Assembly: GCA_028287065.1 (NCBI GenBank)
Contig: JAQBQJ010000003.1
Location: 1 to 48,021, forward strand
Length of the DNA: 48,021 nucleotides
Origin: Labilithrix sp.
Lineage (GTDB): Bacteria; Myxococcota_A; Polyangia; Polyangiales; Polyangiaceae
Direction: 5' to 3'
The notes below the pieces were generated by a model. It worked only from the letters and a program-made list of their open reading frames with translations, was not told where the DNA came from and made no database searches. How positions within the stretch are numbered: the first letter of the stretch is position 1; each line of letters begins with the position of its first letter. The position numbers and the translations under genes were made by a program. Positions 20,265-48,021 of the stretch are shown one piece after another.

Positions 20265-20355
20265 GTCGAGACCGAGACCGAGAAGTCTGAGAAAAGCGCG
20301 AAGGCGTCCCGCATCTTCGCGCTTTAGCGCTTTTCTCAGACTTCTCGCTCTCGAC
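20265..20355. terminator. Long bidirectional palindrome between convergent genes
   Basis: A perfect 21-bp inverted repeat (20279-20299 with 20327-20347) continues outward with one 6-nt indel and a mismatch to 20265 and 20355. Inside, an 11-bp hairpin (20293-20303 with 20315-20325) uses part of the same left arm, so the two folds compete. It sits between the ends of the pseudouridine synthase gene (+) and the TPM gene (-), as expected for a shared terminator. There is no long T-tract, only tttt inside the arm. Confidence 0.7.
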
Positions 20356-28401: not shown

Positions 28402-29760
28402 ATGTGCACTTGCCATAGCGAGCTGTTTGCGAAGCGCCGTCGTGCTTTCCTCGAAGCGGTGACGGCGCGCTCGCGTGCCGTGAGCGACGGAGACGCCGTT
28501 TGCGTCTTTCCGGCCGCGCCGGTGTTCACGCGCAACAACGACGTCGAGCACGACTATCGGCAGGACTCCGACCTCTTCTACCTCACCGGGTTCAACGAGC
28601 CGTCGACCGTCCTCGTGATGGACGGCAAGTCCGCCGGACCCGACGGCGCCGCCGAGTATCGCTCGACGATGTTCGTGCGCCCGCGCGACGCCGATCGCGA
28701 GATCTGGGACGGACCGCGCTTCGGCGTGGACGGCGTGAAGGAGCACTTCGGCGCCGACGAGGCATTCACGATCGACAAGCTCGCCGACGAGCTCCCGAAG
28801 CTCTTCCAGAACAAGAAGCGTCTCTACTACCGGCTCGGCGTGAACCGCTCGATGGACGACAAGGTCCTCGAGGCGATCGACCGCACGCGTGCGCGCGCGA
28901 AGCTCGGCTTCACGTGGCCCGTCGAGATCGTCGACCCCGGCACGATCCTCCACGAGATGCGCCTTTTCAAGTCGAAGGACGATCTCGACGCGATGCGGAA
29001 GGCCGCGGACATCACCGCCGAGGCGCACATCCGCGCGATGGGCGCGACCAAGCCCGGCATGCACGAGTTCCAGGTCGAGGCGATGCTCCTCGAGACCTTC
29101 CGCGCGCACGGCTCGGAGCGCGCGGCGTACGGCAGCATCGTCGGCTCGGGCGCGAACGCGACGATCCTGCACTACCGGCAGAACAACAAGAAGATGGAGC
29201 AGGGCGAGCTCCTCCTCATCGATGCCGGCGCCGAGTACGACTACTACGCCGCGGACGTCACGCGCACGTTCCCGGTCGGCGCGAAGTTCTCGAAGCAGCA
29301 GGAGGCGATCTACCAGCTCGTCCTCGATGCGCAGGAGGCCGGCATCGCGAAGACGGTGAAGGGCTCGACGCTCGAGCAGATCCACGCCGAGTGCGTGAAC
29401 GTCATCACGAGCGGCCTCGTGAAGCTCGGACTCTTGCAGGGCGAGGTCGAGCAGCTCGTGAAGGACGAGGCGTACAAGCCGTTCTTCATGCACAAGACGA
29501 GTCACTGGCTCGGCATGGACGTGCACGACGTCGGCAACTACTACCTCGGTGGCAAGGCGCGTCCGCTCGAGCCGGGGATGGTTCTCACCGTCGAGCCGGG
29601 CATCTACATCGGCAAGGACTACGACAAGGTGCCGGCGGAGTGGCGCGGCATCGGCGTTCGCATCGAGGACGACATCCTCGTGACCGACGGCGCGCCCGAC
29701 AACCTCACGCAGGCGATCCCGAAGACGGTGGCGGAAGTTCAGCGGGCGCCTCTGGCGTAG
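28402..29760 (+). CDS. pepP: Xaa-Pro aminopeptidase (M24B)
   Basis: 452 aa, matching the usual ~440. The N-terminal domain contains VEHDYRQDSDLFYLTGF. The pita-bread catalytic domain holds the metal ligands: LLIDAGAEYDYYAADVTRTFP (two Asp), HKTSHWLGMDVHDVG (His), VLTVEPGIYIG (Glu) and GIGVRIEDDILVT (Glu). It removes an N-terminal residue from peptides with Pro at position 2. The start is ATG 28402 with GGAAGAGG about 5 nt upstream. Its 3' end overlaps the convergent DUF2062 gene by 56 bp. Confidence 0.94.
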   Translation: MCTCHSELFAKRRRAFLEAVTARSRAVSDGDAVCVFPAAPVFTRNNDVEHDYRQDSDLFYLTGFNEPSTVLVMDGKSAGPDGAAEYRSTMFVRPRDADREIWDGPRFGVDGVKEHFGADEAFTIDKLADELPKLFQNKKRLYYRLGVNRSMDDKVLEAIDRTRARAKLGFTWPVEIVDPGTILHEMRLFKSKDDLDAMRKAADITAEAHIRAMGATKPGMHEFQVEAMLLETFRAHGSERAAYGSIVGSGANATILHYRQNNKKMEQGELLLIDAGAEYDYYAADVTRTFPVGAKFSKQQEAIYQLVLDAQEAGIAKTVKGSTLEQIHAECVNVITSGLVKLGLLQGEVEQLVKDEAYKPFFMHKTSHWLGMDVHDVGNYYLGGKARPLEPGMVLTVEPGIYIGKDYDKVPAEWRGIGVRIEDDILVTDGAPDNLTQAIPKTVAEVQRAPLA

Positions 29761-30250
29761 TCGCCACAGTCGGCGTAGTCGCCGCGCCGGCTTCTGCTTC
29801 GGCCTTCGCCGCGGCGCGTGCCTTCCGCACGTCGCGACGGCGCGCGACCGCATACGCGAGGAGGCCCATCACGAGGCCGATCGCACCGCCGACGGGGAAC
29901 ATCCCGATGCACCAGTCGAGCAGCAGGTTCGGCGCCTGCTCGAGCGCGTTGTCGCGCGTGATGTCGAGATACGTGCCGGTGCGGATGCGATGCGAGACCT
30001 GCACCTCCGCGAGCGCGATGAACGGCAGCATGATCATGTTCGAGATGCGCGAGCCGAGCCACGCGAAGAGCCGGTTCTTCCGCGCGAGCGTCGCGAGCCC
30101 CATGGCGATCGGCCCGTGGATCCCTATCGCGGGCGTACATCCCGCAAACGCCCCGATCGCGACCGCCCATCCGATCTCGCGCGGCGTGGCGCGCTCGGAC
30201 TTGGCGAGCTTCCAGAGGAGCTTCAGCTTTTCCCAGAGGCGGCCGAACAA
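29705..30250 (-). CDS. DUF2062 membrane protein
   Basis: About 181 aa from a TTG at 30248-30250. The domain begins RLWEKLKLLWKLAKSERATP and has the DUF2062 pattern IGWAVAIGAFAGCTPAIGIHG and NRLFAWLGSRISNMIMLPFI, with two or three membrane segments and a basic Ala/Glu/Pro tail. Function unknown in the family. No ATG or GTG lies between the TTG and a distant ATG at 30466. Starting there would translate the hexamer repeat element into Gly-Thr and Phe-Leu repeats, so I reject that longer form. The 3' end overlaps pepP by 56 bp. Confidence 0.7.
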   Translation of the reverse strand: MFGRLWEKLKLLWKLAKSERATPREIGWAVAIGAFAGCTPAIGIHGPIAMGLATLARKNRLFAWLGSRISNMIMLPFIALAEVQVSHRIRTGTYLDITRDNALEQAPNLLLDWCIGMFPVGGAIGLVMGLLAYAVARRRDVRKARAAAKAEAEAGAATTPTVATTPEAPAELPPPSSGSPA

Positions 30251-30302
30251 GGGGGAAAGGGTAGCAGATGAGGGGGCGACGGCGGCGACCCGGGGAGGGA
30301 GC

Positions 30303-30430
30303 GAAAAGAGAACAGGGAACAGGAACAGGAACAGGGATGGGGATGTGAAGTCCCCCGCGCCCCCCGTCGCGCGTCTCGAAATTCCGATTCCTGTTCCTGT
30401 TCCTGTTCCTGTTACCTGTTCTCTTTTTTC
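30303..30430. repeat. Inverted-repeat element with hexamer arms (copy 1)
   Basis: The left arm (30303-30335) is gaaaagagaac followed by tandem ggaaca units. The right arm (30387-30430) is tandem tgttcc units followed by acctgttctctttttt. The arms are reverse complements apart from one extra unit and small indels, and enclose about 50 nt with its own short stem (gggga with tcccc). It lies between the divergent DUF2062 and xerC genes. A second copy is at 47909-48021. Confidence 0.85.
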
Positions 30431-30477
30431 TTGGTTTCTCGTCTTCCGCTGCGCCCGTCGGTACAACTCAGAGAGCC

Positions 30478-31494
30478 GTGTCTCTCCGCGACCTCAAATC
30501 CCAATTCCTCGTCCACCTCACCGACGAGCGTCGCGCTTCTCCCAATACCGTCTCCGCCTACGGGCGCGATCTCGATGCGCTGCTCGCGTTCGTGGACAGT
30601 CGCGCGGACTCGCTGCCGTCGCGGAGGCCGAGGCGCGACACGCCCCTGCGCGGGGCGCAGGTCGCGGCTGCGACGCTCGATCTGTTCCTGCTCCGCGCAT
30701 GGCTCGGTGAGCTCGCGCGCACGTGCAAGCCGAGCTCCGTCGCTCGCAAGATCGCGAGCGTCCGCGCCTTCGGACGATGGATGAAGCGGCAGGGCCACGC
30801 GCGCATCAATGCCGCCGAGCAGCTCAAAAGCCCCAAGGTCCGGCGTGAGCTGCCCACGTTCCTCTCCGCCGAAGATGCCGCGTCGCTCGTCGAATCGCCC
30901 GATCTCGACAACGTCGCCAATCGACCCGCCACGTCGAACGCCGAGCGCGCACGCCGCAACGCGCTCGTCCTCCGCGACCGCGCGGTCCTCGAGCTGCTCT
31001 ACGGCGGCGGGCTCCGCGTCGCCGAAGCATGCACGCTCGACCTCGGTCAGCTCTCGCTCGACGAGCGAACCGTCCGCGTCATCGGCAAGGGTCGGAAGGA
31101 GCGCATCGTTCCGCTCGGCACGAAGGCCATCGAGGCGATCTCGCGTTGGCTCGAGCTCCGCGGCGCGCTCGCGCATGCACGGACGCGCTTCCTCGACCCG
31201 CATGCCGTGTTCGTATCGACGCGCGGACGCCGGCTCAACACACGCGCGGTTCAGCTCATCGTCCGGCGTTACGGGCTCGTGTCGGTCGGGCGCACCGATC
31301 TCCACCCGCACGCGCTGCGGCACACCTGCGCGACCCATCTCCTCGACGGCGGCGCGGATCTCCGCGTGATCCAGGAGATGCTCGGCCATGCGTCGCTCTC
31401 CACGACGCAGCGGTACACGCACGTCTCCGTTGCCCACCTCCTGAAGGTCTACGACGCAGCCCATCCGCTTGCGAAGTCGAAGACGAAGGGCTGA
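30478..31494 (+). CDS. xerC: Tyrosine recombinase, XerC type
   Basis: 338 aa. N-terminal SAM-like core-binding domain (SPNTVSAYGRDLDALLAF). The catalytic domain has Arg180 (GGGLRVAEA), Lys204 (KGRKERIVPLG), His278-x2-Arg281 (HPHALRHTCATHLL), His304 (LGHAS) and Tyr313 (TQRYTHVS), all present. It fits chromosomal XerC/XerD dimer-resolution recombinases by length and the pattern VIQEMLGHASLSTTQRYTH. XerC versus XerD cannot be separated by eye. There are no cargo genes, att repeats or integron features around it, so it is probably housekeeping. GTG start 48 nt after the hexamer element. Confidence 0.9.
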   Translation: MSLRDLKSQFLVHLTDERRASPNTVSAYGRDLDALLAFVDSRADSLPSRRPRRDTPLRGAQVAAATLDLFLLRAWLGELARTCKPSSVARKIASVRAFGRWMKRQGHARINAAEQLKSPKVRRELPTFLSAEDAASLVESPDLDNVANRPATSNAERARRNALVLRDRAVLELLYGGGLRVAEACTLDLGQLSLDERTVRVIGKGRKERIVPLGTKAIEAISRWLELRGALAHARTRFLDPHAVFVSTRGRRLNTRAVQLIVRRYGLVSVGRTDLHPHALRHTCATHLLDGGADLRVIQEMLGHASLSTTQRYTHVSVAHLLKVYDAAHPLAKSKTKG

Positions 31495-40990: not shown

Positions 40991-41935
40991 GTGGTTCCCG
41001 CATCTGCGCTCCTGATCTCCATCGCCGTCTTCGGACAGGCCGGGCAGCCCCAGGGCGCGTTCGGTGCGGCGCGGCCTGCGGAGTGCGGCGTGCAAGAGGG
41101 CTTCAAGGCCGCGAACAAGTGGGAGCGCGCGAAGGAGCCGAGCCTGCAGAGCTACTGCACGCTGCTCGCGAGCGGGACCGCGAAGCTCGTCAACGGCGGC
41201 GCGCTCGCGAAGGAGGTGCCCGCGATCGCCGACGACGCGGACAAGCTCCTGCCCGGTCGCGCCGCGCCGAGCGTGCTCAAGGGCCGCGCGCTCCTCAAGC
41301 TCGGTAAGCCCGCCGATGCGCTCGCCGCGCTGAAGGAAGCGCGCGCCCGCGACGACCGCGCGCTCGACGACCCCGTCGCGCTCCTCGCGTGGGCACGCGC
41401 GAACGCGCGCACCGGTCACTTCGACGAAGCCGCGCAGGCGTATCGCGCCGCGCTCCCGCGCACGAGCGCGCTCTCGGCCGCCGAGCGCAGCACCGCCTCC
41501 TTCGAGGCCGGCATGATCGTCATGGCGCAAGGGCCGAAGACCATCGACGACGCCGTCGCGATGCTCCGTCAGGCACGGCGCGAGGCGCAGGATTCGATGC
41601 AGGTTGCATCCGTCGTGGCGCTCGCGCTCGCGCTGGATCGCTCGGGTCAGAAGGACGAAGCGAAGGCGGTCCTCGCCGAGCGCGTTCGCTCCGACGCGAA
41701 GCCGGTCCTCTCCGATGCGCGCATCGCGGATGCGCTCGCCGATGCCGGCGTGGCCCACGAGTCCGACGCGCTCCTCGGGACCGCGCTCGAGGTCACGGAT
41801 CCGAGTGCCGCGCGCGACGTCTGGCGCCGCTACGCCGAGGGCGCAGGCGGGAAGGGTCCGTGGTCCGATCATGCGCGCGCCCACGAGGGCTCTTCTCCTC
41901 CTCGCAAACCCGCGCCGAAGGAGAAGTCGCGATGA
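40991..41935 (+). CDS. Exported TPR-repeat protein
   Basis: 314 aa. A short signal-like N-terminus (VPASALLISIAVFGQAG) from a GTG start, then Ala-rich helical repeats of TPR type (GRALLKLGKPADALAALKEA, LLAWARANARTGHFDEAAQA, LALALDRSGQKDEAKAVLAE). The tail is basic (KPAPKEKSR). Probably a periplasmic scaffold. It overlaps the next gene by 4 bp (41932-41935), the first step of a three-gene coupled operon. Function unknown. Confidence 0.75.
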   Translation: MVPASALLISIAVFGQAGQPQGAFGAARPAECGVQEGFKAANKWERAKEPSLQSYCTLLASGTAKLVNGGALAKEVPAIADDADKLLPGRAAPSVLKGRALLKLGKPADALAALKEARARDDRALDDPVALLAWARANARTGHFDEAAQAYRAALPRTSALSAAERSTASFEAGMIVMAQGPKTIDDAVAMLRQARREAQDSMQVASVVALALALDRSGQKDEAKAVLAERVRSDAKPVLSDARIADALADAGVAHESDALLGTALEVTDPSAARDVWRRYAEGAGGKGPWSDHARAHEGSSPPRKPAPKEKSR

Positions 41936-43014
41936 GCTCCCGACGCCGCGCTCTGAATTCTCTGTCCTCTGTTCTCTGTCCCCTGTTGTCTGTTCTCTTT
42001 TTCTCGCTCTCTTCTTCCGCGGACACGCCTCCTTCGGTCTGGGACCGCGCCCGCGACCCCGCTGCGGCCGACTCGTACCGCATCCATCTCGAGGTGCAGC
42101 GCCGGCTCGCGCAGTCGCAGACCGCGTTCGATTTCGGCTTCTTTTCCGGGTCGAACGAGTCGCTGAAGCTCCAGGTGCGCACGATGCTCGAGCGCATCCA
42201 CGCCGATCAGAGCCCGGACGTCCGCCTTCGCTTCGACCTCGGCGCCGTCTACGTGATGCTCGGGCGCACCGATGCCCCCGAGCTGTACAAGCAGGCGGCC
42301 GACGTCCTCACGCGCGCCCTCGAGATGGCCCCGGACCATCCCGCCGCCGAAGAGGCGTGGAGCAACCTCGCCGACGCGTGCGGCCACATCGGCGATCACG
42401 CGTGCGAGCGTCGCGCGTACCGGATGGTGCTGCGGCTCCGCACCGACGAGGACGAGCACGGCACGTCGACGTTGAACCTCGCCGAAACGGAGATGCACCT
42501 CGGCAACCTCAAGGAAGCGATCGACGGCTATCGCGAGGCCTTGCGCATCGCCGGACGTTTCCCTTCGCGCACGCTCGCGCCGCTCGCGATCTGGGGTCTC
42601 GCCGTCGCGCTCGATCGCGCGGGCGATCGAGCGGCGGCCGACAAGGAAGCGCTGCGCGTGATCCAGATGCAGCAGTCGTCGGGGCTCACGGGTCTCTTGC
42701 GCTCGTCGGGGGTGTTCTTCTATCCGGACTACGAGATCAGCTGGTACGACGGCGTCGGCGCATCGGCGCTCGCGCGCGCGGCGACCACGCCGGCCGATCA
42801 AGCGCGCCACTGGAAGACCGCCGAGGACGCGTTCGCGGCGTATGTCCGTGGCGCGTCGCGTCCGGGGGGTGGGGGGCAGGCCACGATCGATCGCTGGGTC
42901 GAGCTCGCGAAGGTGCATCAAGCCGCGGCGAAGACCGAGCGCGAGAAGGCCGAGAAGAAGCGCGGCAAGCTCCCGCCGCAACCGCAGCTCGACGACGAGG
43001 ACACGACGCTATGA
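41932..43014 (+). CDS. Exported TPR protein whose signal peptide is encoded by pyrimidine repeats
   Basis: 360 aa. The N-terminus RRRALNSLSSVLCPLLSVLF then FSLSSS-ADTPP is a plausible Sec signal, encoded by a tandem pyrimidine heptamer array (41960-41994). The mature protein has TPR repeats: VRLRFDLGAVYVMLGRTDAP, HPAAEEAWSNLADACGHIGD, TSTLNLAETEMHLGNLKEAI and WGLAVALDRAGDRAAADKEA. The acidic C-terminus is followed by a 4-bp overlap with the TIGR02757 gene (43011-43014). It forms an operon with the TPR gene upstream. Function unknown. Confidence 0.78.
   Translation: MSSRRRALNSLSSVLCPLLSVLFFSLSSSADTPPSVWDRARDPAAADSYRIHLEVQRRLAQSQTAFDFGFFSGSNESLKLQVRTMLERIHADQSPDVRLRFDLGAVYVMLGRTDAPELYKQAADVLTRALEMAPDHPAAEEAWSNLADACGHIGDHACERRAYRMVLRLRTDEDEHGTSTLNLAETEMHLGNLKEAIDGYREALRIAGRFPSRTLAPLAIWGLAVALDRAGDRAAADKEALRVIQMQQSSGLTGLLRSSGVFFYPDYEISWYDGVGASALARAATTPADQARHWKTAEDAFAAYVRGASRPGGGGQATIDRWVELAKVHQAAAKTEREKAEKKRGKLPPQPQLDDEDTTL
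41960..41994. repeat. Pyrimidine heptamer array inside a signal peptide
   Basis: Five in-register heptamers: ctctgtc, ctctgtt, ctctgtc, ccctgtt, gtctgtt. They run into ctctttttctcgctctc. The unit and the final ctgttctcttttt resemble the right arm of the hexamer element at 30303-30430. The array is coding and provides most of the hydrophobic core of the signal peptide. Confidence 0.7.
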
Positions 43015-47858: not shown

Positions 47859-47908
47859 CGAGAGGAGAAGGGTAGCACCGGCGGGTGGTGGGGCCGGTGA
47901 GGTCAGAG

Positions 47909-48021
47909 GAGAACAGGGAACAGGAACAGGAACAGGAACGGGGATTTGAATGGGGCGTGACTCGGACGGCGACGTGATCGGTCGCGGTTACGCTCGTTCC
48001 AATTCCTGTTCCTGTTCCTGT
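47909..48021. repeat. Inverted-repeat element with hexamer arms (copy 2, cut by window edge)
   Basis: The left arm (47909-47936) is identical over 28 nt to that of copy 1 at 30308. The right arm begins at 48002 with attcctgttcctgttcctgt and runs off the window. The core is about 65 nt, longer than copy 1, with shared ggggat and tgaa words near the left arm. It lies upstream of the deformylase gene. Confidence 0.85.

Follow-up and report, generated by a model that had tools for sequence, protein, structure and literature searches.

The draft genome of Labilithrix sp. carries two families of small dispersed repeats, A and B, that have common ends (GAGAACAGG...CCTGTTCTC) and different hexamers. 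Copies of both families lie in unrelated flanks, with sharp ends and mostly between genes. We are somewhat inclined to regard both as REPIN- or TIR-dimer-like non-autonomous elements spread by RAYT (Y1 HUH) transposases. Both are probably mobile elements that belong with RAYTs, unusual in how their arms are built, and we infer that RAYTs mobilise them.

The window, i.e., the whole stretch of DNA that was analysed, is 48,021 nucleotides long and constitutes the entire contig G000:C42. Its relevant features are the following:

30304 to 30427: full A element, consisting of left arm, core and inverted right arm; read directly
30304 to 30351, plus strand: left arm of the full A element; AAAA, GAGAACAG and six hexamers (GGAACA three times, GGGATG twice, TGAAGT)
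30352 to 30379: core of the full A element, 28 nt
30380 to 30427, minus strand: inverted right arm of the full A element; on the minus strand AAAA, GAGAACAG, GTAACA, then GGAACA three times
47905 to 48021: second A element, incomplete at the contig end; the left arm occupies 47905-47952 and the right arm begins at 48001
41955 to 42002, minus strand: solo variant arm with the AAGAGAACAG end as in A arms, in the first codons of the open frame 41932-43014
30478 to 31494, plus strand: XerC-like tyrosine recombinase gene (NCBIfam TIGR02224); adjoins the element and is not part of it
29705 to 30280, minus strand: divergent neighbour gene of the element, start codon position not fixed; adjoins xerC in 11 of 11 congeners

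The full element contains a 46 nt inverted repeat that is 85% complementary. The original prediction had placed two copies at 30303-30430 and 47909-48021 with 28 nt of their left arms identical; both copies are real, read here at 30304-30427 and 47905-48021, and share the identical stretch GAGAACAGGGAACAGGAACAGGAACAGG. The second copy is incomplete because the contig ends within it. Family B with its common ends, the RAYT neighbourhood and the solo arm at 41955-42002 had not been mentioned. This solo arm makes up the first codons of its open frame, where a signal peptide was recognised by eye, and is apparently a repeat arm taken into coding sequence. The XerC-like protein scored 300.3 bits against TIGR02224, under the cut-off of 335.15, and its divergent neighbour is presumably DUF2062-like. 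None of 4227 Rfam families was matched by covariance models at the gathering threshold over positions 29900-30900. Elsewhere in the window, at 20273-20353, two 34-nt arms that are 91% complementary face each other across 13 nt; this inverted repeat holds neither the A nor the B word.

The source assembly is a draft of 7,092,405 bases in 577 contigs and is 72% complete. Within these 7.09 Mb, family A occupies at least 37 dispersed sites by our own count, comprising 32 found with the 18-mer GGAACAGGAACAGGAACA and five added from the 13-mer GAACAGGAACAGG (among the 100 of its 121 matches that were listed). The 18-mer has 63 exact matches in the genome and its reversed-word control has none; the 121 matches of the 13-mer compare with two for the control word. 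Family B, with units GTGATG and GAAAYG, gave 44 exact word matches in at least 39 sites (own count), and the palindrome AGAGAACAG...CTGTTCTCT was found in 17 places in the source genome and in 0 of 37 relatives. The earlier suggestion of a genome-wide small repeat is borne out; the repeat is probably mobile. Copy numbers are lower bounds, since 15 of the 35 A sites are located at the edge of a contig. Full inverted doublets were scored by script at 19 of 35 A sites and 22 of 33 B sites, with contig-cut sites counted as solo. A comparison sample of 713 kb held no A, two B and 11 arrays of the GGGCAC kind; its zero for family A is biased, because C1, C42 and C55, which were excluded from it, hold A copies.

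Several loci and repeats were observed alongside these families. At C157:1-300 (L042), the flank of an A element seems by eye to recur beside it as a perfect inverted copy, which may be a fold-back made in assembly. A tandem duplication of ~240 nt at C431:3430-3820 (L057) holds one A arm and one B element, and the solo A arms at C307:10614 and C477:43149 (L052, L061) lie in called genes, where by eye they would encode Pro-Val-type repeats. A third hexamer kind, (GGGCAC)n, is likewise dispersed, often followed by GTGTACGGG or GGTACGGG and partly beside RAYT genes (C217:12381 and 13722, C352, C126, C18 and C47; L129, L136, L247, L167, L195). Two more features are concentrated around several RAYT genes (L041, L059, L128, L130, L242): the dispersed repeat CCGGAACTAAGGACGG and CGAACC-NN-GGTTCG hairpins.

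Among the genomes searched, the elements are confined to the source genome. Neither arm word was found in the 11 congeners, and the 37 relatives searched for the B word gave no match. The A word occurs in one of 57 relatives (G039), there in low-complexity sequence, and a 22-mer searched against GTDB species genomes, with source-genome records possibly excluded, gave one match, in a Synechococcus bin, that reads as a coding stretch; on these grounds both matches were rejected as further copies. The two divergent genes that enclose the window copy stand side by side in all 11 congeners without the element, and the spacers of the pair, ~30 to 195 nt long, revealed no such arm on reading in any of the 11. 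Of the checks proposed with the original prediction, the arm-word search returned dozens of copies here, with the A word in 0 of 11 congeners, and the look at orthologous sites showed them to be empty. Judged from these genome sequences, the window element is best read as gained in the source lineage.

Forty-nine A arms align gap-free, conservation setting in sharply four bases before GAGAACAG; the outer hexamers are nearly invariant, and conservation fades inward with a six-base rhythm (GRAY plus two freer bases). A similar ladder, of GTGATG and then GAAAYG units, is found in 55 B arms. In 37 of the 49 A arms the first GAATT stands in the common hexamer register (offset 27, 33 or 39), while it is off by one in six and absent in six. 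Exact GGAACA units number two to four per arm (32 arms), and these counts differ mainly because inner units (4 to 6) are substituted. Slippage, which had been suggested from unequal unit numbers, is contradicted for most arms by the common register. Core halves, judged by eye, are of few kinds and combine freely.

The long hairpin that had been predicted does form: the window copy folds as RNA at -80.4 kcal/mol (z -12.3 against 200 shuffles) and as DNA with a z of -10.7, and the hairpins of A and B copies are generally very stable. The pairing of inner units, however, is not maintained within elements. Arm co-variation was absent in family A (0.566 within vs 0.560 between elements, P 0.45, 16 elements) and in family B (0.902 within vs 0.911 between, 22 elements), and a compensated hairpin was rejected on this ground. 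Given this independence of an element's two arms, the kept unit seems to be the arm sequence and not exact pairing.

To describe gene context, genes were called with a home-made codon-score caller around 68 sites (35 A, 33 B) that were chosen for carrying elements. Only eight of these sites lie in called genes, in surrounding DNA with a coding fraction of 0.888; 23 are at contig edges and were left unclassified. The 37 classified sites fall between co-directional (20), divergent (9) and convergent (8) genes, close to the shares of intergenic bases of these three kinds (48, 34 and 17%). At 17 of the 20 copies between co-directional genes, the upstream stop is nearer than the downstream start. 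The expectation that copies lie at gene starts or between divergent genes therefore holds for the window copies but not for the family. Proximity to stops would suit transcript-end structures, either bidirectional terminators or mRNA stabilisers, selected at each site, with spread being secondary. The hairpins, very stable on both strands, and the T runs frequent behind A elements also point in this direction. We nevertheless consider this explanation unlikely, given that T runs are missing in most B elements, that inner arms do not co-vary within elements of either family, and that divergent genes enclose nine of the 37 classified sites as well as the window copy. A terminator scan of positions 30100-30700 yielded no terminator-like site, with a 3-8 nt loop limit that may miss the long arm.

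Slightly less probable still is a MITE of the classical type, mobilised by a DDE transposase, the autonomous copy of which would reside in the missing part of the 72% complete assembly. Size, inverted ends, dispersal and intergenic bias are all consistent with it. Bacterial MITEs, as outlined in excerpts of PMC3733652, are non-coding, 70-300 bp long, have inverted ends and lie near genes, and A and B resemble them in each of these respects; they differ from them in showing no target-site duplication and having no known parent IS. Across 14 A and 20 B elements, the longest direct repeats were not above those of shuffles, the observed mean being reached by 0.36 (A) and 0.155 (B) of the shuffles. 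The missing duplication speaks against a DDE MITE. It suits spread by RAYTs, since transposition by Y1 enzymes is expected to leave no target-site duplication. Low-complexity expansion in place or an assembly artefact, at which the hexamer units, the 577 contigs with 15 of 35 A sites at their edges and the fold-back flank seen by eye on C157 might hint, is very improbable and already largely refuted by the sharp ends in unrelated flanks, the full copies within many contigs with different neighbours, and the 63 matches against none for the reversed word.

The reading that we prefer, spread by RAYT transposases, draws on the copy numbers, the sharp onset of arm conservation, the empty gene pair of the congeners and the Y1 genes of the source genome. 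A profile search identified 13 Y1_Tnp matches, all above the Pfam Y1_Tnp cut-off, one of which, to judge from its length and the hairpins beside it, is an ordinary IS200-type gene. In a protein search that scored 25 of the 43 initial candidates from this genome, 19 RAYT-type matches emerged; several are fragments, and more than one may derive from a single gene. Fifteen of the 19 have HxH as well as Tyr where these are expected. Scores against the NCBIfam REP-associated transposase model were 50.8 and 33.4 bits, compared with a cut-off of 80. A subgroup with 78% or more identity to the protein of C155 (C155, C217, C129, C153 and C126, the last two being fragments) was detected only in the source genome among 108 searched, with the best match elsewhere at ~50%. 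The number of RAYTs was dropped as a mark of the source genome: the Y1_Tnp profile search gave 13 matches here vs 0-3 in the 11 congeners, but the protein search returned 9, 6, 6, 2 and 7 RAYT-type matches in five congeners (nine in G003), none in the other six, and 17 in the family member G101.

A or B arms lie within 1.5 kb of six of the 19 RAYT-type matches (8 sites). The contigs concerned are:

Loose A-arm matches within 1.5 kb of a RAYT: C155, C321, C230, C66, C153
Loose B-arm matches within 1.5 kb of a RAYT: C230, C153, C250

Once gene density is corrected for, 1.78-2.49 sites would be expected where these eight were observed (P 0.0005-0.004), in a test for which the observed sites were entered by hand and the genome totals assumed (34, 39, 75, 105); apart from the intergenic fraction, the P values are independent of the 713 kb sample. 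Seven of eight solo arms are oriented toward the RAYT gene (P 0.035), and one (C230) points outward. No intact RAYT among the 19 matches has like arms (A and A, or B and B) on both sides. Two-sided loci are mixed, with B and A at C230 and A and B at C153, where the RAYT is a gene fragment and another gene seemingly precedes the B arm. At 13 of the 19 matches, many of them cut by contig ends, there is no A or B arm within 1.5 kb. At C217, inverted repeats of ~240 nt that are 73% alike stand on either side of the RAYT, each with a (GGGCAC)n array as its outer end; this arrangement speaks for a role of RAYTs, as does the C155 subgroup. In relatives, hexamer arrays were present near 2 of 28 and 0 of 11 RAYT loci examined, and arrays beside RAYTs were rejected as a general rule. 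The lack of like arms on both sides of an intact RAYT, the outward arm, the 13 matches with no arm nearby, the scarcity of arrays near RAYTs of relatives, the REP-associated scores under the cut-off and the absence of a GTAG tag weigh against a role of RAYTs. So does the abundance of RAYT genes in relatives without the elements. RAYT flanks are, moreover, gene-poor (38% intergenic vs 9.6%), and small repeats may gather in the same gene-poor places.

In their working, A and B appear to resemble the TIR families of TIRtrons (Di Nocera et al. 2013, PMC3733652) more closely than REPINs (Bertels and Rainey 2011, PMC3116915), as far as the excerpts of these papers describe them. TIRtrons (TIRYT) are RAYT-like genes with surrounding inverted repeats of several kinds, unrelated to GTAG REPs, and TIR copies are dispersed, many as dimers (PMC3733652, in excerpt). 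RAYT-like genes and dispersed, often dimeric inverted repeats are thus the shared features. In contrast to the TIRtrons so described, A and B arms are hexamer ladders in fixed register, the two families have one common end, and no RAYT was found between a pair of A arms or a pair of B arms, the framing being mixed or one-sided; with framing this incomplete, A and B are candidate members of the TIRtron class. The C217 locus, with its (GGGCAC)n ends, shows in outline the arrangement expected of a TIRtron, a Y1 gene between long inverted repeats of which dispersed copies exist as well.

REPINs, in the portion of PMC3116915 considered, are extragenic, RAYT-associated pairs of inverted repeats that form a hairpin, with solo repeats also occurring. 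A and B are alike in all these traits, including the inverted hairpin-forming doublets of classical REPINs, whereas their single arm is a purine-rich ladder with no hairpin of its own (by eye) and no GTAG. The TnpAREP enzymes tested in the work excerpted from PMC8266576 recognise GTAG plus a small hairpin; the likeness to that system is the presumed Y1 HUH transposase partner, and the difference is that A and B arms have neither tag nor small hairpin. Since GTAG at the arm end is absent from the consensus of 49 A and 55 B arms, the two families are not members of the GTAG REPs. A literature search with three arm words in open-licence PMC papers returned no title on bacterial repeats.

We propose the following mechanism. 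An A or B element would be a non-autonomous unit of two inverted ~48 nt arms with a short, variable core between them. One of the RAYT-type Y1 (HUH) transposases that the source genome encodes would recognise the arms in single-stranded DNA, act at the common GAGAACAG ends and, taking A and B arms alike, insert the element elsewhere. Inserted copies would survive mainly behind stop codons, where the hairpin would be least harmful; there it may affect transcript ends, which is a plausible effect. More tentatively, and with considerable doubt, we suggest that the transposase might read the six-rung hexamer ladder as linear sequence and not as a tagged hairpin. Single arms would then be exchangeable modules, any two arms with GAGAACAG ends, A or B, around any core would make a mobile unit, and the choice of hexamer would define families that coexist in one genome.

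The data on A and B also carry a warning that draft assemblies in this group break where such elements lie. The graded conservation, with the outer arm fixed and the inner arm free except for its six-base rhythm, would amount to a natural mutational scan of possible enzyme contacts. If a RAYT of the source genome does accept hexamer arms, the ladder would be a new kind of target beside the GTAG and hairpin described in the excerpts of PMC8266576. It would also reveal the way in which new specificities emerge among repeat families, and how several families can share a single genome, here A, B and the GGGCAC kind.
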